From: Siderastrea radians
Lineage: Eukaryota; Cnidaria; Anthozoa; Scleractinia; Rhizangiidae
Length of the DNA: 64,000 nucleotides
Assembly (NCBI GenBank): GCA_964017195.1
Contig: OZ024895.1
Coordinates: 16,162,034-16,226,033 of the forward strand
Reading direction: 5' to 3'
Shown here: one piece after another, positions 376 through 23,908 of the stretch
How the letters are laid out: every line of letters starts with the position of its first letter
How positions within the stretch are numbered: position 1 is the stretch's first letter
Translations under genes and position numbers: made by a program
Notes under the pieces: model-generated
Database searches by the model: none
Told to the model about the DNA's origin: nothing
What the model saw: the letters and a program-made list of their open reading frames with translations, nothing else

Positions 376-412
376 TGTGACGTAATCAATTTCCGCTGAA
401 GCTATTCCGATG
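376..412 (+). promoter_or_regulatory. Cassette A conserved upstream block
   Basis: TGACGT at 378-383 is followed by TTCCGCT at 391-397 and then GAAGC. The same block, with nearly the same spacing, precedes the first exons of cassettes B and C and, in variant form, E to I. It lies about 210 bases before the cassette A ATG. TGACGT matches a CREB/ATF half site, and the reverse complement of the second element has an ETS-type GGAA core. Promoter function is inferred from conservation and position only. Confidence 0.45.
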
Positions 413-599
413 TGGAACAGAGTGCAGTTCCGCGTTTCGTAGAAATCTTTGAGTACAAGAGTAAATTACAAAACAAAATGGTCGGTCTACGTTGCCAATG
501 AAATATCGTTGAAATACGCATCACCTCTCGACTATTATCTCCAATGTATTGCAATTAGTAACAACATCGTTCGTCTCACCGTCCAACATCGCTGATGAG

Positions 600-668
600 A
601 TGGGTCTGGTAAAAACACGTATACAAGATGCTGTATTTTCTTAACGCTGGTGGTAATAACAGATACAG
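600..668 (+). pseudogene. Cassette A signal-peptide exon, frame broken
   Basis: This is homologous to the intact first exon of cassette C. It ends at a GTATGT donor and its 3' part can encode the same hydrophobic stretch (CCIFLTLVVI). The ATG at 600 is not in frame with that stretch: about 7 bases present in cassette C are missing, so the ATG frame reaches a stop after 14 codons. No other nearby ATG is in the correct frame. The downstream V and I exons of this cassette are open, so only the leader is damaged. Confidence 0.55.
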
Positions 669-797
669 GTATGTATACCTCTTGCTTCTCTACCTTGAAA
701 TTAGTTCAGTGCTTGTCCGATGCATGCGATAATCAGCAAAGTTATGTAAATGCTCTCATGCTGTCCTTTGTATATCTGCCGCGAAGTGGCCTGCGGA

Positions 798-1260
798 TTT
801 ACAGCTGATTTCACTGCTATGTGTAGACCCGGGTTTTTCAAGCATGATGTCATCTGCTATGATTCGCCCGTCTTGATTCTCTCGTAATCACAAAGCCACG
901 AAGGATATTAGTAAAACCTCTGCTTTTTTGTAATTGTTTATTTCGCAGGAAGTTAGCATTTCTTCTGTAAACTCACTTCATGGGCAAATTTCTAGAATTA
1001 TTTGGCGACCATGGGCAATCATGGCCTGAGGAGGCGAATTATGATTCGTCCAAGGTTACGAAATAATTCTGGAAATTTGCGAATTAAATTTGCTAACAGA
1101 AGAATTACACACTTCTCTGAGATATAAACAATCATAAAAAAGCAGAATATCTGCCAATTTCTCTCTTCGTTTTGTGATTATGAGAGAATCAAGACGGGCA
1201 AATCATAGCAGATCCTTGAAAAACCCGGGTCTAAACAAAACAGTGAAATCAGCTGTAAAG
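798..1260. mobile_element. Foldback inverted-repeat element in the cassette A intron
   Basis: The ends are inverted copies of each other: ATTTACAGCTGATTTCACTG at the left and its reverse complement near 1260. Further matching blocks lie inside, including an ACCCGGGTTTTTCAAG block, a GACGGG / CTCTC block and a GCAAATTT block. It contains no coding capacity. It looks like a non-autonomous inverted-repeat (MITE-like) element inserted between the first exon and the V exon. Confidence 0.65.
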
Positions 1261-2088
1261 TTAATAAAACCTGTGGTTTATCAAAGACGGGCCCTTACAA
1301 ACTGGAGTCATACAGTTGTGGGCACCTAGATTCACGATTTTGTTTTCTATTGGTGTATTATAAATAAGTCTTGCGTGATCTGTTTTGGAATTTGCAAAAA
1401 GTTCATATTGCAGAAATGAAAACCTTCAGCAAAAATATCATACCAGATCGTAGATGCTAGAATTAAACCTTTAACAGCTTCTACTTCCTTTGCATTTTCA
1501 GTATTTTTCAATACAGTAATAAATGGCATGCGTTTTATAAAATTGTGTTATCTGTATTTTTGCGTGATTACTTGCCCAAAGTTGCACGGGATTATGTTTG
1601 TTTTCACCGTTTTCAAAATGTTTTGGTGTAAATTCTAACGTTTTTTCCCCTCTTTAAATAAGCTAGATTTCAACTGCATGAACTGGCATACTTCTATGTA
1701 AGAATATATGCCTCATTTATCAGTTGCCGATATTTGGATGAGCCTTCTCCTTTTGGAAAATACTATATTCTGCCCTGGAATAATTAATTCGCTGTTTGAG
1801 CCCTTACTTTTTCAGGCCATTTGAATAGAGTCTACCAGAGCTCTCTCCCATTTGTTTTCACCTTTTAACTGGCAGGTCATGGTTCGTGATTCGTGCCTTA
1901 ATTTAATTAATACACTGTCGACGATCCTTAGGTGCATCTATGGTCTTCTTTAATACTCATTTGATTCCTAGTCCAATGGTTAGAGCTCTGCTCGCTGCAA
2001 TTCCCCTTTGCTACTCTAATATGGGGTCAGTGAAGGGCATTTCAAAATAAACACAGTGTTATTAACAGTTAATCAATTCTTTTTGCAG

Positions 2089-2484
2089 CAAGCCAATTCC
2101 AATTCACGTCAAGATATCGTGGGAAAACTATACCAGTATTGACGGGGTCCGCTGTGAATTTTACCTGGAGCTTTTCCGGTGGTTCTGATGGTGTTTCTGG
2201 TGTTACATGGGGAATAAAAAAGGATGATGGAATTGGCTTTATTAATAACGGGGTACTCGTATCTCTGAACCCATCAAGAAGCCGTGCATCTTTTCCAATT
2301 GCACTCCCTCAAGAATACAGTGGGCGTGTAGGTGGAAGTCTTACTGGGAGCAAATTCTCTGGTCAGGCCATCTTTACTCTAACTTCCATCAGGAAAACTG
2401 ACGAGAAATATTACGGCTGCAATTTGTCCCCAATCAGTGACTTTGAGCCTACATTTTTTGACAACTTATACTTGTTAGTTGAAG
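2089..2484 (+). CDS. Cassette A V-like Ig domain exon
   Basis: The exon is 396 bases, phase 1 to phase 1, preceded by TTTTTGCAG and followed by GTAAGC. It encodes one extracellular V-like Ig domain of about 130 residues. The B-strand motif is VNFTWSFSG, with Trp where Ig domains normally have the first disulfide Cys. It is followed by a VTWG core tryptophan, an EYSGRVGG strand and the F-strand motif DEKYYGC. The domain probably takes part in ligand or partner binding at the distal end of the receptor. It is fully open and flanked by a damaged leader exon upstream and an intact I exon downstream. Confidence 0.8.
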
Positions 2485-2574
2485 GTAAGCAACTTTATGC
2501 ACTCCAGTATTCAATTTATTGTTATATTTGTCTAACCCAGAAAGATAAAATGGGGAAGGAAGAGCGAATTCTCA

Positions 2575-2936
2575 TGGGAAAAGCAGTAGATTTCCCGATG
2601 ATATTTCCTGAACACAATGCAATGTAAAAGCTCACAGAAAGTACAACAGGCAGTATGCTTCGATATCTGTACCAGTGGAATAGTTCTTAAGCAAATAGAG
2701 CCGAAGATTTTAGGTTTTACTTGATGCGAACATGCTTTTTTGCCCATTAATCTCTAATTTTTTTTATTGGGAAAAGCAGTAGATTTCCCGATGATATTTC
2801 CTGAACACAATGCAATGTAAAAGCTCACAGAAAGTACAACAGGCAGTATGCTTCGATATCTGTACCAGTGGAATAGTTCTTAAGCAAATAGAGCCGAAGA
2901 TTTTAGGTTTTACTTGATGCGAACATGCTTTTTTGC
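2575..2936 (+). repeat. Perfect 169-base direct duplication in an intron
   Basis: Bases 2575-2743 and 2768-2936 appear identical as read, offset by 193 bases with 24 bases between. Both copies lie in the intron between the V and I exons of cassette A. The lack of divergence points to a recent duplication or an assembly artefact. Nothing coding is seen in it. Confidence 0.85.
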
Positions 2937-3022
2937 AATACCAAGCATTTTTCTTGAAAACTTAGAAACGATTCTACAAAATAAATAAATAAGTAGATAA
3001 AAAAGATTGTTTTGATCCACAG

Positions 3023-3280
3023 AGCCACCCAATATTACTATTCCAAATGCAGTTAATGCAAGTTACAGTGAGGGCAGTCCGGTTAATATCAACTGCAAAG
3101 CGACTGGAACACCTGACCCAGATGTCAGGTGGATCCATAATGGACAAGTGAAGGGTTTTGGATTCCAAACAACTCATCTCATTTTTAGCAAAATCAGTAA
3201 AGCAGATTCCGGACTATACACATGCTGGGCTAATAACTCTGTAGGAGAAACAAAGAAAGAACTATATCTTACAGTCACCT
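3023..3280 (+). CDS. Cassette A I-set-like Ig domain exon
   Basis: The exon is 258 bases, phase 1-1, acceptor CCACAG, donor GTAAGT. It encodes a canonical Ig domain with both disulfide cysteines (INCKATG and YTCWANNSVG), the core Trp in VRWIHNG and the DSGLYTC motif. This is the membrane-proximal half of the cassette A head. The last base starts a Cys/Tyr codon completed by the next exon, so it can join any downstream phase 1 exon, including the constant Ig exon at 23642. Confidence 0.85.
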
Positions 3281-3729
3281 GTAAGTACTATACTATGTTC
3301 AAGACATGCAGTTTATTAATGTCATATATTGCATTAAAAGGAAACAAACTTTATATCATTTATTCTTTTCCGAAATGGCTCACGTTTAACATTTTTTTGT
3401 GGGTTAATTTTTGCACGAAAATTTCAAGCTCTAAGCCTCAGGTTTCATGACTACTGTTATTAGTGACTACTGTTGTTAGTCGCATAGTTTAATACCGTAC
3501 ATGTTTTATTAATATTTACTAGCAGAAGTACACCTTTAGGTCACACCATATCTAGTGTGATCTTTCAGTGATGATCGTAAGCTTCTAAGAAATGATCCAA
3601 CCCACTGATCTGCCTTCTGATTAAAAAAAAATGCTGTACCCTCATATTTCACAAAGGTGCCTATCATTTAGTACTGTATTATTGGTATCGGGTGCGTGTT
3701 ATTTCCTCGACTTTGGTCCTCTGGACATC

Positions 3730-3757
3730 AGGTTTGTTTGTTTGTTTGTTTGTTTGT
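3730..3757 (+). repeat. TTTG microsatellite
   Basis: Short run of GTTT units in the spacer between cassettes A and B. The rest of 3281-4081 shows no coding feature. Confidence 0.8.
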
Positions 3758-4079
3758 TTTTTCATTACGTTAAAAAGCCTCTCCGTCCAAACACTAGGAA
3801 AAAGAATCGCAAAACCTACCCGATGATCTTAATCCTTAGTTAGGACAAAGATCAATTTACCAGCATTAACTGTGCCGCTTTGGAAAGTGCATGATGCCAT
3901 GGCACTTACATTTTTACATAATTGATAAAAGGTTGTGTCAACCCACCAAGTTCATGAACAAATTTCAACTATTATAAACTGTAGCATGACAGTTTTTTTA
4001 AGGGAAAACTGGGGTTTTTGTTTCGATCTTCTAAATAAATTTGCGAGTTATTATTTGCACAGTGCTTATTAAAGACAAA

Positions 4080-4112
4080 CGTGACGTTATAGTCAACTTC
4101 CGCTGAAGCCGT
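4080..4112 (+). promoter_or_regulatory. Cassette B conserved upstream block
   Basis: TGACGT (4082-4087) followed by ACTTCCGCT (4096-4104) and GAAGC, the same order as in cassettes A and C. It lies about 180 bases before the cassette B start codon. The second element read on the minus strand is AGCGGAAGT, a good ETS-type site. Function is inferred. Confidence 0.5.
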
Positions 4113-4274
4113 TGCATGAAGTTTTCCGCTTGACAGACCCAGACCTCTAGAGCCGTCCAAAACATGAATTTTAAAACAAGCCGTTCGTCTGCAGTATCTA
4201 CGTTTTCAGCATCTTCTGTTGCATCATTCACTGACAATTAATATCTCCCAACTGGTGCTCCAGCATCGACGTAG

Positions 4275-4356
4275 ATGATGAGTTTTGTTAACTCAGTTCC
4301 AACATGTGCTAAATGCTGTGTTTTCCTTACACTGCTGTTAATAATTCCGCAGACAG
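4275..4356 (+). CDS. Cassette B signal-peptide exon
   Basis: Two adjacent ATGs (4275, 4278) open a 27-codon exon ending in phase 1 at GTATGT. The peptide has a short polar start, then a hydrophobic core FLTLLLIIP and small residues near the end, as expected of a cleaved signal peptide. It feeds in phase into the V exon at 4525. This is the only cassette before the kinase with leader, V and I exons all intact, which makes it the best candidate for the functional 5' end of the receptor. Confidence 0.8.
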
Positions 4357-4524
4357 GTATGTATAAAGATGGTTTCTTCAACATCATATTACATTCGCGT
4401 ATCTGACTTCTTAATCGTAATGTGATTACTCTGTGACACTGAGCGAAGCAACGTGCATAATATTTCTTAGCCAGTGTAGTTCCTTTGTAACGATTTCTCT
4501 TATGGTTTCATAATACTGTTTCAG

Positions 4525-4899
4525 CGTTGATTTCGATAGAGTTTACATCACGATATGATGGAAAGACCGTGAAGGCATTACTCGGTTCTTCTGTGAACTT
4601 CACCTGGGGCCTTTCTGGTGATGTTGGAACTATTCACTGGGGACTAGCAAAAGCTGGTTTTAACGTCGTTGACACTAGACTTGTAAGCATAGGCCAGTTG
4701 GGTTTTGTGACATTAACAATGGCATCAGCATACGCTGGACGTGTGAATGGACGTCGTAGCGGTAACTCATCTTCCGGAAAGGTCATCTTCTCTCTAAATA
4801 ACATCACAAAAGACGATGAAAGAGGTTATGGCTGCATGATAAATCCAACTGTCCCTGTGGTGAGCTCATTAGTTGATGCAGTACATTTAGCCGTGGTTG
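4525..4899 (+). CDS. Cassette B V-like Ig domain exon
   Basis: The exon is 375 bases, phase 1-1, between TTTCAG and GTGAGT. It encodes a V-like Ig domain: SRYDGKTV at the N-terminus, VNFTWGLSG with Trp in place of the B-strand Cys, IHWGLAK with the core Trp, AYAGRVNG, and DDERGYGC in the F strand. It is open throughout. Similarity to the V exons of the other cassettes shows tandem duplication followed by divergence, mostly in the loops between these anchors. Confidence 0.85.
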
Positions 4900-5280
4900 G
4901 TGAGTATTATAACCATTTATCCATATAATAACAGGGTAATCTCTGAAGTTGAATTGACTCACTCGGATGATGTCATTTATCATGTGATATAGAGTCCGCT
5001 AATCGGTCGAGTTCTAAATTGAGCTCCAAAACAGTTCAGATTTTCGTGGCCAGAAACAAGAATCTCCTAAAAATGAATCACCTTTGTGAGCTAGAATGAA
5101 AAAAAAAGTGCACATGCAATACTGTGACAAAGATCGGAGCCGAAGGACAGTTTTAAAAGATACGCTTACGGAAATGTCTAAAATGATGCCGTCTATCAGC
5201 AGACCAAGAGTGTCAACCGTTGTTCACGAATGAATCTTCCATTGTGTAATTTTCGTCCCTATTTTGTTATTGCTTTGCAG

Positions 5281-5538
5281 AGGCACCTCTAATTACTCAT
5301 CTAACTACGTTAAATGCAAGTTACAATGAGGGCAATTTGATCAGCATTAGCTGTAGAGCCACAGGGACACCAGAACCAGATGTGAAGTGGATCCACAATG
5401 GACAAGTAACGAGTTCTGGGGTTAAAACAGTTCATTTTACTTTAAGTAACGTCAACCGGGTAGATTCAGGGGTTTACACATGTATGGCCAACAACTCTGT
5501 GGGAAGAACAGAGAAACATGTGAATCTTGTAGTTAACT
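5281..5538 (+). CDS. Cassette B I-set-like Ig domain exon
   Basis: The exon is 258 bases, phase 1-1, acceptor TTTGCAG, donor GTGAGT. Both Ig cysteines are present (ISCRATG; YTCMANNSVG), as are the core Trp of VKWIHNG and the DSGVYTC signature. It is open and very similar to the I exons of the other cassettes, differing mainly in the GQVTSSGVKT and NVNRV segments. It completes an intact two-Ig head together with the leader and V exons upstream. Confidence 0.88.
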
Positions 5539-5971
5539 GTGAGTAGTTTAAATTTCATGCTACTCAGTTGTATAAAAGTTGAATGAAATTAACTTTTTTT
5601 TTCCTTGCAGTCTTAGTCACCTTTGAATACTTAACTTACACGTAAATTTCCTCCGTGGAATATTTCATGTATTTTCTTTTAACGGAAATATTTTTACTTA
5701 CTTGCTGAAGCGGCTCGATTTCCCTCTGTCTTGTGAGGGGCCGGGTCGGGATTAACTCAACATAATGTAAACTCATGGATGGTTTTCGTGGGGAAAGAAT
5801 GTGCGTAACAATTCCAATGAATCGCGAAATTCTTGTAGATTTGTTCCTCGGTGGAAGTTTACAGAGTCGTTACATCTTTGTCATTTAAACATGACGCATA
5901 TGCTTAGAAGATTTTTGCTCTTCGAAAATAAAACTGCAAATTATTAATTAATTGTACTAGTTCAATGCACG

Positions 5972-6004
5972 TGTGACGTACTCAATTTCCGCTGAAGCTG
6001 TTTC
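5972..6004 (+). promoter_or_regulatory. Cassette C conserved upstream block
   Basis: TGACGT (5974-5979) and TTCCGCT (5987-5993) followed by GAAGC, with strong similarity to the cassette A flank continuing for over 150 bases. It lies about 185 bases before the cassette C ATG. Promoter role inferred. Confidence 0.5.
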
Positions 6005-6172
6005 CTGTGGAACAGATTTCAGTTCGGCGTTTCGTCTAAGTCTTAGAGTACAAAATGGTCGGTCCAAGTTATAAGTGATCGATGGCATACGCATCACCTC
6101 TCGACCATTATCTCTAATATATTGCACGTAGTGACAATATACTTCGTCTTACTGTTCAACATCGCTAATGAG

Positions 6173-6248
6173 ATGTGTCTTGTAAACCCAATACTAACGT
6201 ATACAGGATGCTGTATTTCCTTAACACTGGTGGTAATAACACATACAG
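6173..6248 (+). CDS. Cassette C signal-peptide exon
   Basis: An ATG at 6173 opens a 25-codon exon ending in phase 1 at GTATGT. The hydrophobic core is CCISLTLVVIT. It aligns with the cassette A leader, which has lost about 7 bases relative to this one. The leader is intact, but the V exon it would join (6858) is broken, so it could give a sound product only by joining another exon of the same phase, such as the I exon at 7981. Confidence 0.65.
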
Positions 6249-6857
6249 GTATGTATACCTCTTGCTCCACTGCCTTGACATTTGTTCAGTGCTTGTTCAA
6301 TGTATGTGATTAACTTATGCAAATGCCCCCATCTGCTACACCATACTGTTCACACCAAATCAAGTACCATCCGCAACTTTTATTTGTAGTAGTTTTATTC
6401 GGTGGTGTCTTTTATTTTCACCGAGAAGTGGCTGTCGGATTTAAACCTATACACTCATCTTCTTTAATCAACGCTTGAATACTGTATCATGTTCTTTCAA
6501 GCCGGCTGCTGAATAGTGATATACCTACTGGATAAAGTTCCTTTCAGCAACTTGGGCCTGTATTTAATAGAAAAGGATATTTTGTTTCAAATGCTTCTTT
6601 TTTCCATTAAACCTGATTAATCAACCAAAATCCGTCTCAAAAGAGTAAGACTTGTCATGATAAACGATTTTAGATTGTTTGGTTAATACTCATTGAATGT
6701 AAGAATCTTATTTTTATTTTTCTATCAACACTGGGCCATTAAAAAGCTCTCTCGCTTTTTGCATGTTATGCCTCAGGGATAAGGGAAAGGCATTGGAGAA
6801 TAACTGCAAAAAAGAAGACTACGCTTTTAATTACTAAAACCTCAATTCCTTTTACAG

Positions 6858-7263
6858 CAAGCCAATTTACGTCAAGATTTCGTGGAAAAACTGCAACAGT
6901 GTTGCCTGGGTCCTCTGCGAACTTCGCCCGGAGCCTTTCACCTGGTCTTCTTCATTTTATTATGAGAGGAGTTAAAGAAGATGGTAAAAATGATTATATT
7001 CCTAACGATTATATTCCTGATAGCTCTTCTCTTCCGTCCAGTGTCTTACAAAACTCTAGACGATAAAGCATACGATACAATGAATGCTATAAAGAATATC
7101 ATGGACGTGTTGGTGGAACTGTTACTGGCAACATATTCTCTGGTCAAGCCATCTTTACCATACGTTCTATCAGAAAATCTGATGAGCGATTTTACAGCTG
7201 CATTTTGTTCCCAAACCATGGCAATAAAAAATTACTTCGACAACTTCTACTTGCTAGTTGGAG
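6858..7263 (+). pseudogene. Cassette C V-like Ig exon, decayed
   Basis: Acceptor TTTACAG and donor GTAAGC are retained and the start reads as a V exon (SQFTSRFRGKT). The B-strand motif is changed to ANFARSLSP, the core WG region is lost, and a stop codon falls in frame after SRR near 7061. The second half is recognisable in other frames (HGRVGG, then SGQAIFTIRS, then FDNFYLLVGG), so there is at least one further frameshift near the A-run at 7229-7234. It is a dead exon unless it is skipped. Confidence 0.75.
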
Positions 7264-7590
7264 GTAAGCAACAGTATGTTCACTTAATTCTAATTTTTCT
7301 TTCGCCCAAGAAATTAAAATTAAAGTGCACTGTCACCAATTTTTAGGATTACTATTGAAGTGATATCAAAGGAAACCCCAAAATACTCAGTTTTGTTTAA
7401 AATTACCCTACCAGTTCTCTGAAACTATAATTAAGTAATTAAGTGCGTTTGGCAGCAGATCGCTGTGAGGGAAATGGATTAGGCTAATGTCTTAAGTTTC
7501 TCCTTTGTTTTGTTTTGTTTTGTGCTTTTTTTTTTTGGAAAAATCACCGGAAGTTGACCATGGTTTGTTCTCCCTTTGAGAAAATCATTA

Positions 7591-7628
7591 GATTCTTGTA
7601 TCTTAATTTTAATTAAGATACAAGAATC
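7591..7628. repeat. Perfect short palindrome
   Basis: GATTCTTGTATCTTAATT (7591-7608) and its exact reverse complement (7611-7628) are separated by two T residues. It lies in the intron between the cassette C V and I exons. It could form a cruciform or RNA hairpin; no function is evident. Confidence 0.8.
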
Positions 7629-7980
7629 ATTTCGTTTACGAGAAAAAGTATTTAATACAAATTTAGTCTGAACAGTCTTCACTCAAAAACGTAGCAATGC
7701 CCGTGATAGAGCCCCTTCAAGAGTGAATTCTCCAAGGGGAAGCTAGAGATTTCTCAGCCTTTAGTTTGTTAGCCACAATGTGAAATCAGTTCAACTAGTA
7801 ATCCGTTTCGATTTTTGTAATAGTCAATAGTTCCTGGGAAAACAGGACCATTGATTTTAGGTTTTGTTTCATGTTTATACTGTGCCTCACTTTGCCCGTA
7901 TATAACCGCTTAAACACAAAGCAGTGCCTTGGAAACCTTAAATATAATTATACAAAAAAGACACTTTTTTTAATCCACAG

Positions 7981-8247
7981 AGCCACCCAACATCACCACC
8001 ATCACCCAACCAATAGCAGTAAATGCAAGTTACAGCGAGGGGAGTCTGGTTAATATTAGCTGTACAGCAACAGGGAAGCCAGACCCGGATGTGAAGTGGA
8101 TCCACAATGGACAAGTGAAGGGTTTTGGGTTCAAAACAGCTCATCTCACTTTTAGCAAAATCAATAAAGCAGATTTAGTAACATACACATGCTTGGCCAA
8201 TCACTCTGTGGGAAGAACAGAGACACAACTATATCTCAAAGTCAACT
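7981..8247 (+). CDS. Cassette C I-set-like Ig domain exon
   Basis: The exon is 267 bases, phase 1-1, acceptor CCACAG, donor GTAAGT. It is a canonical I-type domain with ISCTATG, VKWIHNG and YTCLANHSVG, plus three extra codons near the start (a run of His/Thr/Ile codons from a CACCATCACC duplication). It is open. The DxGxYxC signature is altered to ADLVTYTC, losing the usual Gly. It is closest to the cassette A I exon (GQVKGFGF shared). Confidence 0.82.
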
Positions 8248-11504: not shown

Positions 11505-12115
11505 CGTGTTCACTCGAAGTTTTCAAGCGTAGGAAAATTGCCGGCGAACGTCATGTTTACACGTGTTCACCACCTTCAACATAATATGGTTAGAAAACCT
11601 CCGACAAACACCGAGTTTACCAACTCCGGCAAACAACGGAAAACCATTTAGAAAAACAGCGTGTTCCCTCGGGGTTTTCGAGCGCAAGAAAATTGCTGGA
11701 GAATATCATGTTTTCCACGTGTTAACCTTCGATACAATACGGTTAGAAAACCTCGGACAAACACAGCGTTCAACCACTCAGGAAAACAACAGAAAACAAT
11801 TCAAGAACAACGTGTTCACTGGAGTTTTTCGAGAGCAGGAAAATTGCGGGCTAACGTTATGTTTTCCTTGTGTTATATAACCGTTAACAGATACAGTGAG
11901 AAAACTTACGAAAAAAGCGGCGTTCGCCCGGTCGCGAAAACGAAAGAAAATGTTGCCGAAAACAACGTATTCACTGCCGTTTTTCGAGCGCAGGAAAACA
12001 CTCGATGAACTTCACGTTTTTCAGGCGTTCACAGAAGGAAAACGCCGAATTCACCGGACGTTTTCCGAAGAGCAGAAAACGGATGGCAAATCGCAAATTT
12101 TCCTAAAATTCCCCT
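11505..12115. repeat. Four tandem units of about 151-155 bases
   Basis: Units start at 11505, 11660, 11811 and 11966, each beginning CGT(G/A)TTC and containing TTTTCGAGCGCAGGAAAA-like and GGAAAACAAC-like segments. They have diverged by point changes and small indels. The two overlapping open frames of just over 100 codons at 11563-12008 are by-products of the repeat. It lies immediately upstream of cassette D and seems to have replaced the conserved promoter block found before other cassettes. Confidence 0.75.
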
Positions 12116-12313
12116 GTTGGTAAATTACCGGTAAATGAGGGTTTTCTTGCCGTGGAAGTTTTCCGCGTTCAAGAGTGGCCAACTCGGTAAATGCGTTGAA
12201 AATAAATGGTATATCTACCGATCTGTATCGTTCATCTCTTTTTGGGAAAGCATCTTTCATAAATTGCATTCAGTGAAAAGACGTTCGTTGTCCATCGTAT
12301 TTGATCGCATTAT

Positions 12314-12370
12314 ATGTCTTTTGTACACAACTCTGTGTTTTCCTAGTGCTGTTGTTAATTCCACATACTG
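12314..12370 (+). pseudogene. Cassette D signal-peptide exon, frame broken
   Basis: The 3' half can encode a leader core (CVFLVLLLIP) ending in phase 1 at GTATGT, as in cassette B. The ATG at 12314 aligns with the cassette B start but reads one frame off and stops after SVFS. No in-frame upstream ATG was found close by. The V and I exons that follow are intact, so the damage is confined to the leader. Confidence 0.55.
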
Positions 12371-12753: not shown

Positions 12754-13113
12754 CGAGTCAACTAAAATTCATATCACAGTATCAGGGGAAGGCTGTCAAA
12801 GGGCTTGTTGGGTCTTCTGTGAACTTAACCTGGTCCTTCTCTGGTGACCTTCGTAGAGTAAGATGGGGTCTAAAGAGTGCTCATATAAATGGCATCAGAA
12901 CGGTGCTAGTATCACTTGACAGCACTGGCTTATTACCAGTGCCAGTTCCACCAGCATGTTCTGGACGTGTGGCTGGTGTTCTATTATCTGGCCAGGCTAT
13001 CTTTACCCTTAGTGCCCTCGCAAAACAGGATGAAAACTTGTATGGTTGTGAAATTGAGTCAAGTAATCTTATCCCAATAAATCAAATTGACTTTGTGCGA
13101 TTGGTTGTTGAAG
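12754..13113 (+). CDS. Cassette D V-like Ig domain exon
   Basis: The exon is 360 bases, phase 1-1, acceptor TTGCAG, donor GTGAGT. It is open throughout. The motifs in order are SQYQGKAV, VNLTWSFSG (Trp for Cys), VRWGLKS, ACSGRVAG, SGQAIFTLSA, DENLYGC. It carries an extra Cys (PPACSGRV) where others have Tyr. Its shorter length than cassettes A and B comes from the loop before the last strand. Confidence 0.85.
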
Positions 13114-13568: not shown

Positions 13569-13826
13569 AAAGACCCTTAATCACTCATCTGACGAAAGTG
13601 AACTCAAGTTACATTGAGGGGAGTGCGTTTAATGTCAGTTGTAAAGCAACAGGCAAACCAGACGCAGATGTGAGGTGGATCCACAACGGACGAGTGAAGA
13701 GTTCTGGGATTAAAACAGCTCATCTCACATTACGTGCGATCAGCAAAGGAGATGCCGGGATATATACGTGCAGGGCCAACAATTCTGCTGGAATTACACA
13801 GAAACAACTTGAACTTGTAGTTAACT
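13569..13826 (+). CDS. Cassette D I-set-like Ig domain exon
   Basis: The exon is 258 bases, phase 1-1, acceptor GTTGTAG, donor GTGAGT. It is open, with VSCKATG, VRWIHNG, DAGIYTC and RANNSAG. It belongs to a subgroup with the cassette E I exon that has Ser-Ala-Gly rather than Ser-Val-Gly after the second Cys. It is a complete canonical Ig domain. Confidence 0.87.
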
Positions 13827-14641: not shown

Positions 14642-14705
14642 ATAACTTCCGCTCTCAGGTTACGTCACAAATGATATCGAAGTTTTCCGCGTTGAAGCAG
14701 TCGGT
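14642..14705 (+). promoter_or_regulatory. Cassette E conserved upstream block
   Basis: AACTTCCGCT at 14644-14653 followed by ACGTCA at 14662-14667, the same two elements as in cassettes A-C but with TGACGT inverted and downstream. A second shared motif, GTTTTCCGCGTTGAAG, follows at about 14682. The block is about 190 bases before the ATG. Confidence 0.42.
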
Positions 14706-14834
14706 TTGTACTTCGTCTAGAACCAAACAAACCTTACCATACATTACAGAGCAAATAACAACATGCTTGTTGTCGAAACTTTAATATCGCGCACATAGAC
14801 AAGAACTTACGAATCGCTGTCCAACGTCGCTAAC

Positions 14835-14910
14835 ATGCAATCTACAACGTCAGGAACAACTGCAGAATTTTTGATTTTATTCCTCAGACTGTTGTTATTT
14901 CAGCATGCAG
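14835..14910 (+). CDS. Cassette E signal-peptide exon
   Basis: An ATG at 14835 opens 25 codons ending in phase 1 at GTATGT. The core is FLILFLRLLLF, interrupted by an Arg, then QHAG at the junction, as in the leader of cassette H. The leader is intact, but the V exon it faces is disrupted by a triplication. Confidence 0.65.
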
Positions 14911-15545
14911 GTATGTATAACTTTTAACCCTATCGAGTTTCCATCTTATATTCCTTTACCAGACCTATTAGAAACCTTGTTAGGTTAGTGGACGATGCTA
15001 CTCGGTATCAGTATGGGTTTCTCTTGAAGGTCCCAAATATCTTGTGTGTTAATACCCACTTTGGTACTCTTCATTGCAGTTCTGACGTTCAATAAACAAA
15101 TTGTAAAATGATACAACGATTTCAAGACGTGACAAATTAAAAGTTAGGTTCTCACCACTAAACAAATTGTACCAAGATGCTGTGAAGAACGAAGAAATGT
15201 AGTCTGTCAGAGCGAAAAACAGTGCTTGGAATTCTACATAACGCGAAACTTTAATGAAGAAAATTAAGGGAAAGTAACTGAATTTCCTTTCTTCCGGCCG
15301 TGCAACCGGTGTGTTTCGGTTTCATTAGTGGTTTAGATTAAGGATAGAGTTTTGTTACAGGATCACAGACTTTTCTTCTAGAACCCAAGGACGAATAAAC
15401 TTGGCATAAAAATGACCTTTTAAAACAAGCAGCGGTTGAATTACATAAAAATGACACTTTTAATGTAACGAGAGAAATCCGACCTTTTGTAGCGTCAGAA
15501 CAGCAATTTTAAACCGCCCTTATTTTTAACTGCATATTATTGCAG

Positions 15546-15974
15546 CAAGTCAGCCATCGTTCACGTCAAGATATAAAGGAAAGACTGTCATGGGATTGCT
15601 TGGTTCTTCTGTGAACTTTACCTGCTTGGTTCTTCTGTGAACTTTACCTGCTTGGTTCTTCTGTGAACTTTACCTGGAGCTTCTCAGCTGATGTCGAATG
15701 GGTTGACTGGGGACTCAAGGAGAGCGGCGTTAAAGTTAAAGACATTAAAACGGAGGGACTCTAGTAGCACTGCGCCCAACTGGTCCCGTGCGCTTTTTCC
15801 CTGGAGTACCACCAGCGTATGCTGGACGTGTTAGCGGTATTTATTCTTCTCCAGGAGAAGCCATCTTTACACTCAGTTCCATTACGAAAAACGATGAAAA
15901 CGTTTATGGTTGTAAGATTCGATCAGGGTCTACCTTTGAGACAGAGTTTGATTATGCGCGATTGCTTGTCTTAG
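15546..15974 (+). pseudogene. Cassette E V-like Ig exon broken by a 26-base triplication
   Basis: Acceptor TTGCAG and donor GTGAGT are intact and the domain is recognisable (GKTVMGLLGSSVNFT, then WSFSAD and WGLKE, then AYAGRVSG and DENVYGC). A 26-base segment over the B strand occurs three times at 15599-15624, 15625-15650 and 15651-15676. The extra 52 bases shift the frame to an immediate TGA. Around 15761 two further bases appear inserted, which restores the original frame for the rest. Total exon length therefore remains phase 1-1, but the exon carries stops. Confidence 0.8.
15599..15676 (+). repeat. Three exact 26-base tandem units inside an exon
   Basis: Unit start CTTGGTTCTTCTGTGAAC, end TTTACCTG. 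The three copies appear identical, so the expansion is recent or an assembly artefact. It covers the B-strand motif that is most conserved among cassettes. Confidence 0.9.
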
Positions 15975-16336
15975 GTGAGTATGAGCACGAGCTTCATATC
16001 GTAGCTGCTTTAAAGAACGAAGGCCGAAGGCCAATGACAAGAAGATGTTAATACTTTTATACAGAAGAGTGATAAAGAAAATCACTCCAAGAATTTCTTA
16101 ACAAAGCCTACACTTTTTTAATAACAAGAAACTTAGTTTCAGTGCAAAGACAACGAGATTCGATAATCTTGTAATATCAATGTGTGCCGAAAATTACCTC
16201 AACATGTACAATATAGCACAATAATCTATACCGAAGCTTAGCTAAGCTTCGTATAGCTTCTATTCGTAGCCAAATCGTTAAAATTATAAAAGTTTACGTC
16301 TGTCCATTGCATTGACTAACTAAAGGGTGACACGAA

Positions 16337-16337
<1 letters not shown>

Positions 16338-16378
<41 letters not shown>
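16338..16378 (+). repeat. ATA trinucleotide microsatellite
   Basis: About 13 uninterrupted AAT/ATA units directly upstream of the acceptor of the cassette E I exon, within 45 bases of the splice site. Length changes here could affect recognition of the branch site. Confidence 0.9.
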
Positions 16379-16418
16379 TGTAAAACTTCATTGCTTATTT
16401 TGTTTTTTACATTTGCAG

Positions 16419-16676
16419 TGATGCCAGTAATTACTAACCTTACAGCAGTAAATGCAAGCTACAATGAGGGAAGTCATTTAAATATTAGCTGTGAAGCAAC
16501 TGGTAAGCCAGACCCAGAAGTATTGTGGATCCGCAATGGAAACGTAAAAAGCTATGGGTCTGGTGCAGCTCATCTTACTATTAATAAAATCAGCAAAGAA
16601 GATGCAGGAATGTACACATGCAGGGCCAACAACTCCGCAGGAATCAAGGAAAAATTATTGAATCTCGTGATAAACT
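16419..16676 (+). CDS. Cassette E I-set-like Ig domain exon
   Basis: The exon is 258 bases, phase 1-1, acceptor TTTGCAG, donor GTGAGT. It is open, with ISCEATG, VLWIRNG, DAGMYTC and RANNSAG. It is a canonical I-type Ig domain, most like that of cassette D and the remnant in cassette G. Confidence 0.87.
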
Positions 16677-16715
16677 GTGAGTCCTAAAAGTCCTCCCTGT
16701 TATGCACCTGTGTAA

Positions 16716-18296
16716 TACACGAATACAATAAGGGAAGTGGGGAAAACTATTATGAGGGGAGAGGAACGGTTTAGGGAGGAGGGAGAAACAGCCCAAAAAG
16801 TAGCTGGAGGAGGGAGAAAGGACGAACAAAAATAGGGAGAAGGGAGAACCAGCATGAAAAGGGAGAAGGGAGAATGTCTTAAAAAACATGACATGAGTCA
16901 TTAAAGCCTTAAATAGATCTTAATATAAGAAACTGTACAGATCTGTTCCCCGTTAATCAATTATATCGAGAGAAGACTGGGTGGACCCTGGGTATCCAAG
17001 ACTATTTTGAGCCCGTAAGCTCGGGTGCATGTTTGCGGTATTTTGAATGGTCTCTTTTGTTATACAATTTTCGCTAGAGGTCGCTAGGGAATTTCTCGCT
17101 TCATTGACATTCAGTTTGGCCATTTCAAGATATTCTGATTGACCGTGAGGGGGAGAGATCAAATCGGAAAATCGTGAGACGTTGAGTTAGTGTTCGTCAA
17201 AGCGTGAGATTTTGGAGGTCTGTGTGGCTCGAGGATCAGGGTCAAGGGCAGGGCCATGGTGAGTGCGAAATGTTTTGCCTTTCCAGTTTTCTGTCTTTTC
17301 GGAACTGCCTGTGTGTTTAGGTCTGTTTAGGCGTCACCAATAAAACGAGTTATGCTTTCCGATTCGGTGCTTCCATTAGGTCCCCAGAAATGTAAAACAA
17401 TACACAGCATCTTAATTTTAAACAAAATATTTTATTTTTGTCCTTGAAATCACTCTTTTGGCATTCATGTCATGGTCTGCCATCGATAACGGCGCCATGT
17501 TGTGATCTTTATAGCAATTTGGCTGTCACTCAAACCCTGACATGCTCCTGTTGTCTTTTTGGCACTGTGTCACGTAAAACTCCGAGGCCTTTTTGTGCAA
17601 AAATAATTCTACTGCAAATTGCTTAATAAGAATAATTTGAAGGGAAGTCAGTAAACTAGTAAACTAAACTGACTGACAATGTAATCGTATTTAACACATT
17701 TTTCGTTTTAAGAACTTTGTGGATTTCGTTGTTTACTGGTTGATGTTGCGTTACCTTGATGCTTTAATGTACAAATCCTAACTTTTTCCCGCTCATCAAA
17801 AGCAATATTAAAACATTTCTAGTTCAGCCACAAACAAAAAAGTTGCGATGTAGGCAAACCGGCTTAAGGCCACTAGAAAATTATCAAATTTACCGACCAA
17901 ATCCTTGGGATGTTGCTTTGCTAGAAAGTATGCAAAAGTAATTCTCATATTCCGTGTATTAATTTGCTGGCCTCGAACTGTATTCATAGGTAAGCTGGTA
18001 CTACATGTTAAATCTAGCAGTCTGTAGGTATTCAAAGTCTTGACAGTCTTCAAAGAGCACAAAGTTCTTTAGTAAAGTCACAACATTGGAAGGAATTTAG
18101 ACTGCAAGTGTAGTGTTACGTAATAATATAAACCCGTTAAAGCACGGCTAATTAGGGAGAAAGGTGAAAAATCAGGGAGGAGGGAGAAACGGCCAAAAAA
18201 ATTAGGGAGGAGTGAGAAAAATGAGTTTAAAAATAGGGAGATAAGATATTTACCTGCCCGTTCCTCTCCCCTCTATTATTAACTTGTATTATGTAA
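16716..18296. mobile_element. 1.6 kb element with inverted ends and purine-rich subterminal repeats
   Basis: The left end (about 16716-16768) contains GAGGGGAGAGGAACG, and the right end (18254-18296) its reverse complement, with further matching bases outward (AATACAA). Just inside each end are arrays of GGGAGAA-type units on the same strand (16775-16875 and 18151-18240). The interior shows no transposase; it looks like a non-autonomous DNA element inserted between cassettes E and F. Confidence 0.55.
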
Positions 18297-19380
18297 AGCG
18301 CAGATATAGCGAAGTATACTTCATTGTTTTGCGGGTATATAACGTCTTAGAAATGAAAGTGGAAAGATACCACAAACACCATAAATGTGTCCACTTGTGA
18401 TGAAAACGTCTGAGGTGTTTGATTCCGTCTCTTAAGGCCTAAAGCCTTAAATGTGCTTAGTTAGCCGAGCCAACCAGTCGCGGACGATTGAACTTCATCG
18501 AGTCTTCAATTCTATTAAGTATTCTGGCTCGGTATTTTTTGTGACGTTTTGCTTCAATTAAAAAATAAGTAATCTTCTTTAGACTAGAATTTCAGCTGGG
18601 CGTAACGCAAGTGGTGTAGTATAACGGAAGACAAACTGATAACAAAAATTGAAATTAAATTTGCGAAACATGTCTACTAAATGCGTCGTGCCTATGTTAG
18701 GCATTGCATAGATAGCTTTGATTTAACAAGTTCTTGAATTTCATGGAGACACTAGAAACCCGTTCGGTAGGCCTGATTGAGTGTTTTGACTGTATGCATT
18801 GCGAGAATTTGTTGAAATTATGCTCAGACTTTCTCAGACGTAATGTTGTAAAGCATTTTTCACACGATAAACATCTAACTAAAACGGTTGCGAGTCGCTC
18901 AACTGTGAAGCTTAAAACGCCTTATCGTGCAAGTAGTTGATACAATTTGTTTGCACAAATTTATGTCTTTCTGTAATGGAAAGAGGGAAAACGGGGCGAA
19001 ATATTGGAAATATTTTAAATTGTTTTGGTCGGTCAAAGAACTTGCAGTGGCATGACTCGACCGAGTGTTCGATAAAGAAACCTTCACTGAAGAAAACAAG
19101 ACGTGCATAGAAGTTTAAAAAAATAACGCGGCGGAGCGATGAAAGCGGATTTCCTTTTCAGTTCATCGCTTATGACTTATTTCGTGGGACATGAAATCTT
19201 TGAAGGACCGCCAAATTCTCAGTATCAAAGTTAAAGGATTACAGTCTTTTAGGCGTTCATAGAACGCAAAGCGGAGTTTACTTTTGCGTTTGCCATTTGT
19301 ATGATCTTGAGGTACTAAGTAGAGATAGGTACAAATGGTGAACACAAATCAACCCAAGGCGTGACCGCCTTGTATTCAAT
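18297..19380. other. Spacer between cassettes E and F
   Basis: No exon or repeat family recognised. The open frames at 18734-18940 and on the minus strand at 18899-19108 lack recognisable motifs. Confidence 0.45.
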
Positions 19381-19440
19381 TAACTTCCGCTTAAGCTACG
19401 TCAAACAGATGGAGGTCTCCGCGTTCCCAAGCGGTAAAAG
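19381..19440 (+). promoter_or_regulatory. Cassette F conserved upstream block
   Basis: ACTTCCGCT at 19383-19391, ACGTCA at 19398-19403 and GTCTCCGCGTTCCCAAG shortly after, the same arrangement as cassette E. It lies about 165 bases before the leader-like exon. Confidence 0.42.
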
Positions 19441-19544
19441 AGTTACAAAACGATTCGTGACTCTGTATCTAAGCTACCTTTCTTTATTGGATATATTGCG
19501 TCGAGAGTAAGGTGTTTCGACTCACCGTTCAAACTTCGTAATAG

Positions 19545-19619
19545 GCGTTTGGAGGCTTAGCTGCAGACCACCTACGAAAAGCTGTGTTTTTATTGCGCTG
19601 TTGTTAATTTCGCTTGTGG
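19545..19619 (+). pseudogene. Cassette F leader-like exon without ATG
   Basis: Before a GTATGT donor the sequence encodes a leader core SCVFIALLLISLVG in phase 1. The in-frame codon where the other cassettes have ATG reads ATA (in GTA ATA GGC). No other in-frame ATG is near. The leader is either dead or is initiated elsewhere. The left edge is approximate. Confidence 0.5.
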
Positions 19620-20172
19620 GTATGTGTAACGTTTTATTTATTTATTTTTTAACTTATGGCTTGTTATTGCCTAGATATTCCAATACATGTGAATGGCATT
19701 GTTGTTGCTGCCTTAATTTTAAGTTTTAAAAGTCTTATAACTACAAAACAGATTATTGGACCTGAGGAGAGATCGCGGTCACAAAACCGAGTCGAGGTAG
19801 AAAGCGATTAATGTGTTTGCCTGGGTTTACCCAAAGTCAGATAGACGATACTGTATACCAACCCTCAACTATGTGACAGTTAGAGTACAAACGTGTGAAG
19901 AACGTGTGAAATGAGTCGTTTTGTTATTGTGTTTTCGTTACCGCGCAAATTTTCTGTATATTTCGAAAATCCAAAGGAAAAGTGGTAAAAGTAGTCAAGT
20001 CAGATTGTGATAAATACAACGTAGGAGTGAACGCTGACCCTTTAGATACGTATAAGTAGTATAAATGACATCGTTCATTATGAAGTTTATTTGCAATGAT
20101 GAAAATTAATGTTTGCGGAATAGCTATGCTCTGCTTCACCTGATCATGACTTCACTTCTTTTCCGCATGAAG

Positions 20173-20525
20173 TCGGGTGCATATGGCATACAGATATCTT
20201 AGAGAGACTGTTACCGGAGTGCTAGGTTCATCTGTAAACTTCACCTGGAGTTTCTCTGGTATTGGCAATGTAGTCTGTGGACTCACACGTCCAGGTTACG
20301 ATGACGATCTTGGCGAAAGACTGATATCTATTGACAGAACTGGTAAATTTGTGGCATACGCTGGACGTGTTAGTGGAAGTCGTGACGGTAACTCGTCGTA
20401 TAGCCAGGTGACGTTAACCATCAGTAACATCAGCAGAGGGGATGAAAGAGATTATGTTTGCCACTTCAAGCCCTCTTACATGTGGGATCCTTCACCAATC
20501 GACTATTTCTTCTTAGCTGTTGAAG
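20173..20525 (+). CDS. Cassette F V-like Ig domain exon (5' edge doubtful)
   Basis: The frame is open from about 20177 and encodes VNFTWSFSG, VVCGLTRPG (the core Trp of other cassettes is Cys), AYAGRVSG, DERDYVC and a final FFLAVEG. The donor is a weaker GTCTGT. The nearest AG upstream (20171-20172) would give an incoming phase one base different from the other V exons, so it may not join a phase 1 leader. The N-terminal segment MAYRYLRETV is degenerate compared with SRYxGKTV. Possibly functional, possibly recently damaged. Confidence 0.6.
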
Positions 20526-20639
20526 GTCTGTAAATTTTTTATTCACAGTTCAAGGAATGCAGGAATCTACAGATCGATCATCCAGATCCAGTACCGTTCT
20601 GAAATAATTTTCGTCTTAACATCGATTATGCGTTTTCAG

Positions 20640-20897
20640 AGCCACCCATTATCACGTATCCGACTTTACAATACACAAATTACAATGAGGGAGATCCTGT
20701 TAACATGAGCTGCATGGCGGTGGGTAAACCAGACCCAGATGTAAGGTTGGTCTTCAACGGACAGGTGAAAAGTTCTGGTTATAGAACAGCTCAGCTCACT
20801 CAAAATCAAATCAGCGCGGATGATGCAGGAAAGTACATATGCAGGGCGAACAACTCTGTAGGAACCACAGAGAAACAGTTGAAACTGGTGGTAAACT
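20640..20897 (+). CDS. Cassette F I-set-like Ig domain exon
   Basis: The exon is 258 bases, phase 1-1, acceptor TTTCAG, donor GTAAGT. It is open, with MSCMAVG, DAGKYIC and RANNSVG. The core C-strand Trp is lost: VRLVFNG stands where the others have VRWIHNG. It is the last cassette exon before the constant part, 2.7 kb upstream of the constant Ig exon, and joins it in phase. Confidence 0.82.
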
Positions 20898-22744
20898 GTA
20901 AGTATTGAAGTCGCTGAAAGTGTACACTCAGCGTAATATTTCTGTCAGGCCAAAGTTGTCCATCATGATGGGATTCTTTAGTGCGGATTATACGTAGTTT
21001 GAACAAAAGGGAAAAAGAATCAAATATCATTTGTAAACATGTGATCTGTTAATAACAAATTTGTAAATACGGATTAAATGAAATAAGCATTAAAATTTGG
21101 ACTTAAAAACGTTGGTGTGTGGTTTGCAGTAGTTTACAACTTTGCTTAGGCCACGCCTGAAAGGCTTTCATTAGCAAGCATTTTGAGGCTGCATATGTTG
21201 CTAACAATTATCAAAATTTCTTCTTTAAATGCCAAACTTAAATCTGTGATCATCGACCATCTGGAAAAAATGTCTGGTTCAGTTGTCATTTATTGTTCCA
21301 TCAATTGACCATGTTTTGTCTCTTTTTGTGTTTGATTGTCCTTTTGTCATCCGCTAACTTTTTTTGTATATTTAAAAGGGCAGTGGTCATAGCAGCGTCA
21401 AGAGGTGCTGTATAACAAGTACCCACTCATAAGAAAGGCAATTAATTAGCCATTTGTTTATCATTAAAATATTCATGTATGCATTGATAAGGTAACGATC
21501 AGACCAGGTACATTTTTCCCAACAATCGCTTGTTGTTGTCGTTGCTGTTATTGGCTTATGCTATAGCCAATGATCAAGGTAGAATTATGTTTTCTCTTAG
21601 TTGTAGTTAAAAGTTCTAAATTTGGGTGGTGAGCACACTGTCGTTGTATACACGTTTATACATAAAGGATATTACATGGAGGCGCGAAAATTAAGAATTT
21701 TTATTTTCGAGTGGCTTTTAAATAGAAAGATTAGTTTGATTAGTTCGAAAACGTTTATCGCAACCGAAAGGTTGCCTATAAGAAGAGTGAAAATAAACAC
21801 TTATTTTACCCAATCTCGTACATTATCTCACAGAGAATATCCATTTATTATATATAAACATAAGTGTTTTAGTGAAAAATAGACCACTCGTAGAGTTCAT
21901 ACGAAACTACACCCAGGACCCGAGTGGCGTATTTCCATATCCTCACCAATAAGGATATCAATGACGTCATTTCCCGATTTGGAAAAACTATTCTTGTTTA
22001 TATAATAAAAATAAAGTTACACGGCGGCTTGAAGACGTGATTTATAAAACAAATATAAAAAATAACGTAAAAAGTAATCAGCACGTATACGCAAGTGGGG
22101 TATTTTTCCGCAGATATTATTTGTTCATTGGAGCGAAACTTTTAGCATCGAGGAGCAAATGGTATCCTATGGCAAATATTCGTGCAATATTTCCAAAGCC
22201 AAATAAAAGTCATTTTATTTATAACATATTTTCAAGGTCATATCTTTTAAATATTTTGCTGACAATATTTTAAGGGTCATGGAAGTATTTAAAGAATAAT
22301 CCAGTTGGTTTGGGCTGCGTGGGCGTCAAACCCATTTGCTTACGTACGTAGGGCATTGAATTTGTTAGGGCTTCCTAGTATCTTTCTATCAAAAAGCATT
22401 TTGATGCCCCCCTGAGAAAATGTCCATCATCTTCCATCATTTTGAAAACTGGCGATTTTAGTTGGGAAATATCTTTTAATATATCTCAGTTTTAATTGTG
22501 GTGTATTGTATACGTGAAGCATTAACTGAAGACTGTGCTAAAATCAAAAAAAGATTTTTGATTTATATTCCATGTATGACTAACTAGCATAATGCACCTT
22601 TGCCCTTATCTAATAGCTGTTTATAAGAAAATGTTATAAAGTAATTGATTCTGTTTATACCATGAATTGCACCAGTCACAAAGCCAGGGATGAAGATGAA
22701 AATTCCGCCGTATCTCACGAGTGGCACTTGCATTCCCGTGGTTG
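20898..22744. other. Intron between last cassette and constant part
   Basis: AT-rich sequence with no recognised exon. The 21640-22290 part is an AT-rich tract with several open frames that look like non-coding repeat; no domain was recognised. Confidence 0.45.
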
Positions 22745-22748
22745 TTAA

Positions 22749-23177
22749 AGTGCACCTAACCCCAAAATATTTTTTACGCTAATATAAATCTTTGCACCTA
22801 TTTTAAAAACATTTCGCCATTATTTGCAGTTTTTGACTTTTTTATGGGCTTCAAAACTTACGACAAACTAAGCACCATTTGTCGCACGACCGAGTTAGAA
22901 GGGGCATGGGTCTATTCTTGATTTGACGTCACAAACTGCTTTGCACGCATATTTACAAAGACTTAAGGAGATGCAAATCAGTTTCTGATGTCAAATCCAG
23001 AATAGACCCATGCCCTCACTAGCTCGGTCGTGTACCAGATGATGGCTAGATTTCGTAACTTTTACAGCCTATAAAAAGTCAAGACTGAGGGGGATTTCAT
23101 AAAAAAAGGCGTAATGCTTTTCGAACAGGTGCAAAGAGTTATTTTAGCGAAAAAAATATTTTGGGGTTAGGTGCACT
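22749..23177. mobile_element. 429-base inverted-repeat element flanked by TTAA
   Basis: The ends are AGTGCACCTAACCCC and its reverse complement, extended inward by an AAAATATTTTTT block and, further in, by inverted GACCGAGTTAG / CTAGCTCGGTC and GGGTCTATTCT / AGAATAGACCC segments. TTAA lies immediately outside on both sides (22745-22748 and 23178-23181). TTAA duplication is typical of piggyBac-type insertion, so it is probably a non-autonomous relative. Confidence 0.75.
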
Positions 23178-23641
23178 TTAAGTGTCGCATTGCATGATAT
23201 GACATGACTATTTAACTGAGTTTGTAATGAATTTGAAATCAAGCGCAATCGAAATATCTCTTGGGGAATCTTCAAAACTGGTCAAAGGCCAAGTTGGAAA
23301 TTAAAACCTTAAGAAAATGATCGCAAGCGTTCAAATCTTAGTTTCAATCTTCGTAAAATCGATGGAGTCTTGGAAATCATGGAAAAGTCTTCTAGGTCTG
23401 ACCAAAAACGTTTGAAGAACTTTGGGACAATCTTTAAAAGTGTTTGGAAAATTGTCAAACCTTCGAATTTCAATGCTTCCTGGTCTAATGCAAAATTTCT
23501 GAAGCTAAAAATTGACTTTCAATTGTTACTCACCTAAAGGTTCATGTGTATCCAGAATGGTTAAGTCACCGGTGGGAAATTTCATGGTTACCTAATTGAA
23601 GACATTGGTAAATAAACTGCTTCATTTGTTGTGATCAACAG

Positions 23642-23908
23642 ACACAGCTACCATAGAGAACATCACCACGTCCATGGCCAAGTCTTGGATTGGTCAGCTA
23701 GTAACGTTGAAGTGTGTGTCCGATGGTTTTCCTATCCCAGCCATCACATGGATCAAACCAGATGGAAATATAATAAAGAAAGTTAACTCCAAAGAGAACA
23801 CAGTGACTGTTGTAATGACTGCTGATCAGGATTTTGGATTTTTTAACTGCACGACAAACAATGGCGTAGGCGATGCTTCCACACGCACAGTGCAGGTGCA
23901 ACAAATAA
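23642..23908 (+). CDS. RTK constant part exon 1: Ig domain
   Basis: The exon is 267 bases, phase 1-1, acceptor CAACAG, donor GTAAGA. It encodes a canonical Ig domain unlike the cassette domains: VTLKCVSDGFPIPAITW for the first Cys and core Trp, and FGFFNCTTNNGVG for the second Cys. The first two bases complete the split codon left by any cassette I exon. It is the first domain of the invariant ectodomain. Confidence 0.88.

Follow-up and report, generated by a model that had tools for sequence, protein, structure and literature searches.

Organization of the locus

The stretch of DNA analysed here, referred to as the window, comprises 64,000 nucleotides of the stony coral Siderastrea radians (assembly GCA_964017195.1, contig OZ024895.1, positions 16,162,034 to 16,226,033), and its subject is a receptor kinase gene preceded by an array of immunoglobulin (Ig) head exons. 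Between 2089 and 20897, the + strand carries six V-like exons, each paired with an I-like exon, and these pairs make up cassettes A to F; every pair is preceded by a leader-like exon with a GTATG donor. A single body lies 3' of the cassettes, consisting of a constant Ig domain, three fibronectin type III (FN3) domains, a transmembrane (TM) segment and a tyrosine kinase, with its final exon at 39411-39479. The features of the array and the body are as follows.

388..402, + strand: upstream element A (AATTTCCGCTGAAGC), 281 bp 5' of the leader donor
599..668, + strand: leader-like exon A, without an in-frame ATG; 7-nucleotide gap relative to the near copy in C
2089..2484, + strand: V exon A, open
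3023..3280, + strand: I exon A, open
4095..4109, + strand: upstream element B (AACTTCCGCTGAAGC)
4275..4356, + strand: leader exon B, intact, with ATG and a phase 1 donor
4525..4899, + strand: V exon B, intact; V-set fold predicted
5281..5538, + strand: I exon B, intact
5984..5998, + strand: upstream element C
6173..6248, + strand: leader exon C, intact, with ATG
6858..7263, + strand: V exon C, broken by frameshifts and an internal stop
7981..8247, + strand: I exon C, open
12106..12120, + strand: degenerate upstream element D, 5 of 15 positions mismatched; not matched by AAYTTCCGCT
12277..12370, + strand: leader-like exon D, without an in-frame ATG
12754..13113, + strand: V exon D, open
13569..13826, + strand: I exon D, open
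14644..14653, + strand: upstream element E (AACTTCCGCT); the next five bases differ from B
14835..14910, + strand: leader exon E, intact, with ATG
15546..15974, + strand: V exon E, broken by a 26-bp unit present 3.1 times at 15597-15676 and by a further shift
16419..16676, + strand: I exon E, open
19382..19396, + strand: upstream element F
19511..19619, + strand: leader-like exon F, without an in-frame ATG
20173..20525, + strand: V-like exon F, with one open frame and a weak GTCTGT donor; phase-1 acceptor lacking
20640..20897, + strand: I exon F, open
23642..23908, + strand: constant Ig exon, phase 1 in and 1 out
24431-24724, 25089-25400 and 25689-25970, + strand: three FN3 exons
27226..29422, + strand: stalk, TM (27719-27835) and juxtamembrane exons (29078-29098, 29385-29422)
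29992..33599, + strand: tyrosine kinase, in eight exons; frame off by one base at the 31361/31820 junction; SNVW replaces SDVW
39411..39479, + strand: last coding exon (TYVNLSEYDDSQYANVNDLQEE, stop), located by tblastn with relatives

The cassettes are clearly related to one another. I exon A or B, used as query, matched those of the remaining five cassettes with expectation (E) values of 2e-40 to 3e-28, and V exons A, B and D matched the other V exons at 5e-25 to 6e-7; this similarity is far beyond chance. All six I exons are open, have ordinary splice sites and end in phase 1 with a terminal T, and this T together with the AC that opens the constant Ig exon at 23642 yields an identical Tyr codon from each cassette. 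V exons A, B and D, like all six I exons, are flanked by phase-1 borders and have a length that is a multiple of three.

These results bear on the original prediction, made from the sequence of the window, which had described six tandem leader-V-I cassettes in front of one Ig-FN3-TM-kinase part. The order, strand, pairing and single body were as described, and the domain order of the body holds, with its end now extended to 39479. The cassettes are less complete than had been supposed, for leaders A, D and F lack an ATG and the V exons of C, E and F are damaged. The further claim that every I exon ends in phase 1 and could be joined to 23642 was borne out for all six, and the three leaders from which separate transcripts had been proposed to start, at 4275 (B), 6173 (C) and 14835 (E), are exactly those of A to F that have an ATG.

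The heads depart in one respect from ordinary V-set domains. V exon B is predicted to adopt a V-set fold; V exons A and D on their own were not recognised by Pfam. In an alignment of 17 V rows, the B strand (23-30) contains an invariant W27 and the F strand (99-106) an invariant C103. A disulfide between the B and F strands is a usual feature of V-set Ig domains, and it is absent from the 17 aligned rows. A protein search with the head only returned just 3 unrelated Ig proteins among 1433 candidates, and when viral contigs were scanned for related DNA, none of the 44 pattern matches was a relative.

The damage takes several forms. V exon C differs from that of A by three frame-changing gaps, in an alignment that is partly uncertain, and by the internal stop; V exon F has no acceptor in the phase that its leader requires. 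The copies of the 26-bp unit in V exon E match at 100%, so that the repeat is of very recent origin or else artefactual. In cassette A, the V-I intron contains a 193-bp unit that is tandemly duplicated (2575-2936) with a 100% match, pointing to a very recent event within the array.

The kinase body

The joined exon translations gave a Pfam match to PK_Tyr_Ser-Thr at E 1.9e-88, along with fn3 and Ig matches. The kinase contains a DFG motif, and the hydrophobic leader and TM exons were identified by eye. By its predicted domains, namely a signal peptide, extracellular domains, one TM segment and a kinase, the product qualifies as a receptor tyrosine kinase. Two kinase exon queries matched no second kinase in the window. 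Tie receptors have EGF-like repeats between their Ig domains, and no EGF family was present among the 20 Pfam matches (E up to 0.1) of the model that joins B to the body. The three fn3 stretches likewise depart from the architecture of FGFR, which has three Ig domains and no FN3.

When B is joined to the body, the first stop falls after 885 codons, four codons beyond the 31361/31820 junction, because of the one-base shift at this kinase exon border. The body may thus be damaged as well, or the assembly may contain a homopolymer error. An apparent frame break in the juxtamembrane region vanishes when the second AG of the CAGAG acceptor (29385) is used. A stretch at 33839 was considered as the last exon and rejected; the kinase tail is at 39411-39479, so that the last intron spans almost 6 kb. 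Within that intron lie two similar, oppositely oriented open frames (34222-34554, + strand; 38392-38697, - strand), which are probably mobile-element copies.

Selection on the cassettes

Across all 15 pairs of I exons, the ratio of nonsynonymous to synonymous divergence (dN/dS) is 0.12-0.36 at dS 0.53-2.05; across the six pairs among V exons A, B, D and F it is 0.34-0.51 at dS 0.98-1.60. Low ratios at such dS argue for long constraint after duplication, with the lesions arising comparatively late. These ratios describe the cassette copies irrespective of which transcripts used them.

Upstream elements and putative promoters

With both strands counted, the window contains exactly six copies of the motif AAYTTCCGCT. 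Each copy is on the + strand and lies 238-281 bp 5' of a leader donor, the donors being those of A, B, C, E, F and a relic cassette, G, located 3' of the kinase. In shuffles of the window the motif had a mean count of 0.33 and a maximum of 2, and none of 100 shuffles reached six. In a second test, which took in B, C, E, F and G and left out A, D and a further relic (H), the best 12-mer (reference B; targets C, E, F and G) had 6 mismatches in total, as compared with at least 10 in 60 dinucleotide shuffles. The element also served as a guide to a leader: the V relic of G was matched first, near 45930, and the element at 45268 then located its leader exon at 45452-45524.

Cassettes A and C are 78% identical over 219-730, which covers the upstream region and the leader, and again 78% identical around the I exon; most of their intron sequence cannot be aligned. 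With a leader-like exon in front of each pair and a shared element in five of the six, the cassettes look like former starts of transcription units. The pattern of upstream conservation is what separate promoters would look like, with some of it owed to descent. In the UGT1 cluster, as described in PMC1885805, a conserved motif is likewise found at about one position 5' of each variable exon.

Relatives in other corals

A query of 1012 residues was assembled from the exon translations, and 85 proteins from the searches were compared pairwise. All statements about relatives refer to the matches listed, with one representative per 90% cluster, so isoforms may be absent. The top matches were proteins of Oculina patagonica, Porites, Stylophora and Pocillopora and a few from JGI, annotated as 'Tie-1-like', 'FGFR-like' or uncharacterised; P0002, P0006, P0007 and P0013 are 54-61% identical over 75-98% of the query. 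These coral Ig-FN3 receptor kinases share the layout of the locus: a leader, V, I, in some two extra Ig domains, then constant Ig, FN3, TM and kinase. Most V-bearing models have one head, in contrast to the window, where each V-I pair has a leader of its own in front of it. When the 85 relatives were scanned with a profile, 55 proved to contain a single V domain and 25 to contain none; the remaining 5 have two or more (six in P0124, three each in P0132 and P0183, two each in P0001 and P0135).

A head swap is annotated in Oculina LOC144662794. The last 807 residues of isoforms X1 and X2 are the same, and their leaders and V domains differ, with 37 of 136 aligned head positions identical; X3 is X2 without the leader, and X4 combines the X1 head with another end. 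These isoforms are annotations rather than reads. LOC144662794 is one of five isoform-like sets, recognised by long identical stretches and isoform labels; the others are P0046/P0049, P0054/P0056, P0134/P0137 and P0139/P0141, and within three of the pairs the product names differ. In these four pairs, from Pocillopora, Stylophora and Montipora, 173-175 residues between I and the next Ig domain are included or skipped.

Two other kinds of model are relevant to tandem heads. Oculina ACROYT_G028474 is a V1-V2-V1 string, and NCBI LOC144664191 joins exactly its V2 to the kinase of ACROYT_G028473 (P0030), which is headless in the other annotation. In two Stylophora models, P0124 and P0132, each on a contig 285074 long, V domains are strung successively. 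P0124 continues from its V string to one I, Ig, FN3 and kinase part, with a piece of kinase tail inside, and appears to be partly a prediction artefact; P0132, with a V2-V1-V2 order, adds a further run of tandem V exons. In the relatives, tandem V exons thus recur in front of a receptor part, either alternatively spliced or chained by prediction.

Two further groups were left out of the count of isoform-like sets. Oculina P0002 and P0003, possibly products of one gene, are identical over the first 410 and last 233 residues with different middles and different names, and swapping of body modules as well as heads is possible. Pocillopora P0032, P0126, P0127 and P0130 share scattered exact blocks of at most 73 residues, save one of 218 (P0032/P0130).

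Head relics and repeats downstream of the kinase

Remnants of heads are also found 3' of the kinase:

44206..44424, + strand: truncated I-exon relic fused to repeat DNA
45268..45277, + strand: upstream element G
45452..45524, + strand: leader exon G, with an intact ATG
45919..46169 (ends approximate), + strand: truncated V relic G
54741..54822, + strand: leader-like exon H, with ATG and a GTATAT donor
55881..57001, + strand: relic H, with a frameshifted V (55881-56250) and a cut I (56919-57001)

The repeat DNA fused to the 44206 relic (44100-44210) recurs near 35850 and 43900, and a mobile element seems to have cut the I exon there. Relic H is adjoined by a minisatellite at 57396-57901, with 14.5 copies of a 35-bp unit at 93% match. 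Farther downstream, 61581-63260 (+ strand) is an open frame of 559 codons with a weak Pfam match to GIY-YIG, below the cut-off, which we take to resemble a Penelope-type retroelement.

Comparison with known cassette arrays

The closest arrangement is that of the chelicerate sDscam-alpha and sDscam-beta genes, in which tandem 5' Ig cassettes likewise precede one constant part. As described in PMC4835542 and PMC5775551, these cassettes encode Ig1 or Ig1+2, each lies behind a promoter and each is spliced to a constant Ig-FN3-TM part; skipping or repeating of cassette exons keeps the frame, and cassette expansion is species-specific. Both cap-proximal and downstream cassettes reach the constant exon, according to PMC4835542. 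On these descriptions, the beta type, with two Ig domains per cassette, matches the window, and the alpha type, with one, matches the Oculina X1/X2 swap. The sDscam genes are derived from Dscam, belong to arthropods and have a body without a kinase, in contrast to the kinase body here; the word 'kinase' has 0 occurrences in PMC5775551. Furthermore, the promoters and splicing of sDscam were tested by reverse transcription-polymerase chain reaction, rapid amplification of cDNA ends and reporters, whereas those of the present array are predicted from sequence.

The UGT1 and protocadherin clusters also have tandem variable first exons with their own promoters and shared constant exons, and they evolve by birth and death with pseudogene exons; the UGT1 variable first exon includes the signal peptide (PMC1885805). 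Their unit is one large variable exon, as opposed to three small exons per unit here, and they encode vertebrate enzymes or cadherins rather than kinases. The array would work like sDscam-beta, protocadherin and UGT1 but belongs to none of them, because its body is a kinase. The Hydractinia Alr allorecognition proteins, a tandem cnidarian family with V-set and I-set heads similar in plan to those here, are not known to have a kinase domain. Searches of open papers turned up no description of head cassettes on a kinase, and the term 'tyrosine kinase' was not found in PMC10236652, PMC12314368 or PMC12005167.

Interpretation and alternatives

The reading favoured here, in which our confidence is evenly balanced, is that the locus is a coral receptor kinase gene with an array of promoter-leader-V-I cassettes that evolves by birth and death and has, in this instance, mostly decayed. 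Each unit would originally have comprised a promoter of its own, an exon for the signal peptide and one exon each for the V-set and I-set domains. In a functional array, transcription would start at one unit, and the phase-1 I exon of that unit would skip any later units and be spliced to 23642, giving a product with a head of one V and one I domain on the common FN3-TM-kinase body. Units would be gained and lost through tandem duplication and decay. At present, C and E could still start transcripts; to serve other units, their leaders would have to bypass the broken V exons next to them, and the V-I pairs of A and D would be usable only with a leader from another unit. If the gene has a main product, it would be B joined to the body, because no other head is complete. 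The comparisons lend good but indirect support to alternative heads as a property of this kinase family, of which the locus would be a mostly decayed member.

A number of observations weigh against this reading. B is the sole cassette of six that is complete from the ATG through the I donor, the other five being disabled; variable-first-exon clusters of the protocadherin and UGT1 kind have several intact units, and here one in six is intact. In the body, the frame is off by one at 31361/31820, beside a run of six A residues and with open frames on both sides, and the SDVW motif, with Asp in 39 of the 39 relatives that have it, reads SNVW with Asn. Synonymous divergence is near saturation in many cassette pairs. 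Element D is degenerate, H has none, and E equals B only in the ten-base core; moreover, because the cassettes are paralogues, shared descent accounts for part of the conservation of the element. Among the matches listed, just one of the five isoform-like sets (LOC144662794) shows a head swap, and in the other four the head is the same, 173-175 residues differ after it and no kinase domain is listed.

One alternative is that the cassettes are ordinary decaying tandem duplicates of the 5' end, from promoter to I exon, that never served as alternative heads, with only B or nothing expressed and the locus perhaps a dying gene. We regard this as a substantial possibility, falling somewhat short of probable: the five disabled cassettes, the downstream G, H and 44206 I pieces as relics, the one-base shift in the kinase and the change from SDVW to SNVW all speak for it. 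It is harder to reconcile with six I exons that remain open at dS 0.53-2.05 with dN/dS 0.12-0.36, arguing for constraint long after duplication, with the conservation of the upstream elements as well, or with the head arrays and the one head swap in the relatives. The original prediction had named partial gene duplicates as an alternative, and this may still apply to most of the cassettes.

At the other extreme is the full claim of that prediction, six currently working interchangeable heads on one kinase, which we consider very improbable. Leader-like exons and open I exons do run throughout the array, two of the lesions lie in runs of A (in the V of E and at 31361) and could be assembly errors, and the 26-bp repeat in E is artefactual if not very recent. 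However, no homopolymer-type lesion is involved in the missing ATG of leaders A, D and F, in the rearranged V exon of C or in the lost acceptor of F. Six interchangeable heads at this locus are unsupported because five cassettes carry disabling lesions; the idea survives at the level of the family, where LOC144662794 swaps its head and 55 of the 60 V-bearing relatives have one V. The prediction's other alternative, a single long multi-Ig receptor with several V-I pairs in series, is likewise highly unlikely. The intact exons would concatenate in frame, being phase 1-1, and 5 of the 85 relative models have more than one V. Against this, leader remnants precede every pair, and the large majority of V-bearing relatives have the single V just mentioned. 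P0001, in which the stretch from V to kinase is repeated, and P0124, with its kinase-tail piece between V domains, look like chained predictions, and P0183 has unrelated sequence between its V domains. In four of the five multi-V models no I separates the successive extra V domains; the fifth, P0001, repeats the whole gene. P0006, encoded on a JGI contig of 3.7 kb, has a single V and a single I.

Implications

A broader proposal, offered tentatively and as somewhat doubtful, is that stony corals independently invented promoter-selected heads, with V or V-I cassettes lacking the usual V disulfide on shared receptor tyrosine kinases, and that this locus is an ageing member of the group. If so, a cell would choose what its kinase recognises, and a diversified repertoire would have direct kinase signalling, which a colonial animal could use on self, non-self and symbionts. 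The known cassette arrays with alternative promoters encode adhesion molecules (protocadherins, sDscam) and enzymes (UGT1). Their occurrence on signalling kinases, in an early-branching, colonial and symbiotic animal, would mean that the design arose again with recognition tied straight to signalling, and it would yield a concrete candidate family for self/non-self or symbiont recognition in corals.

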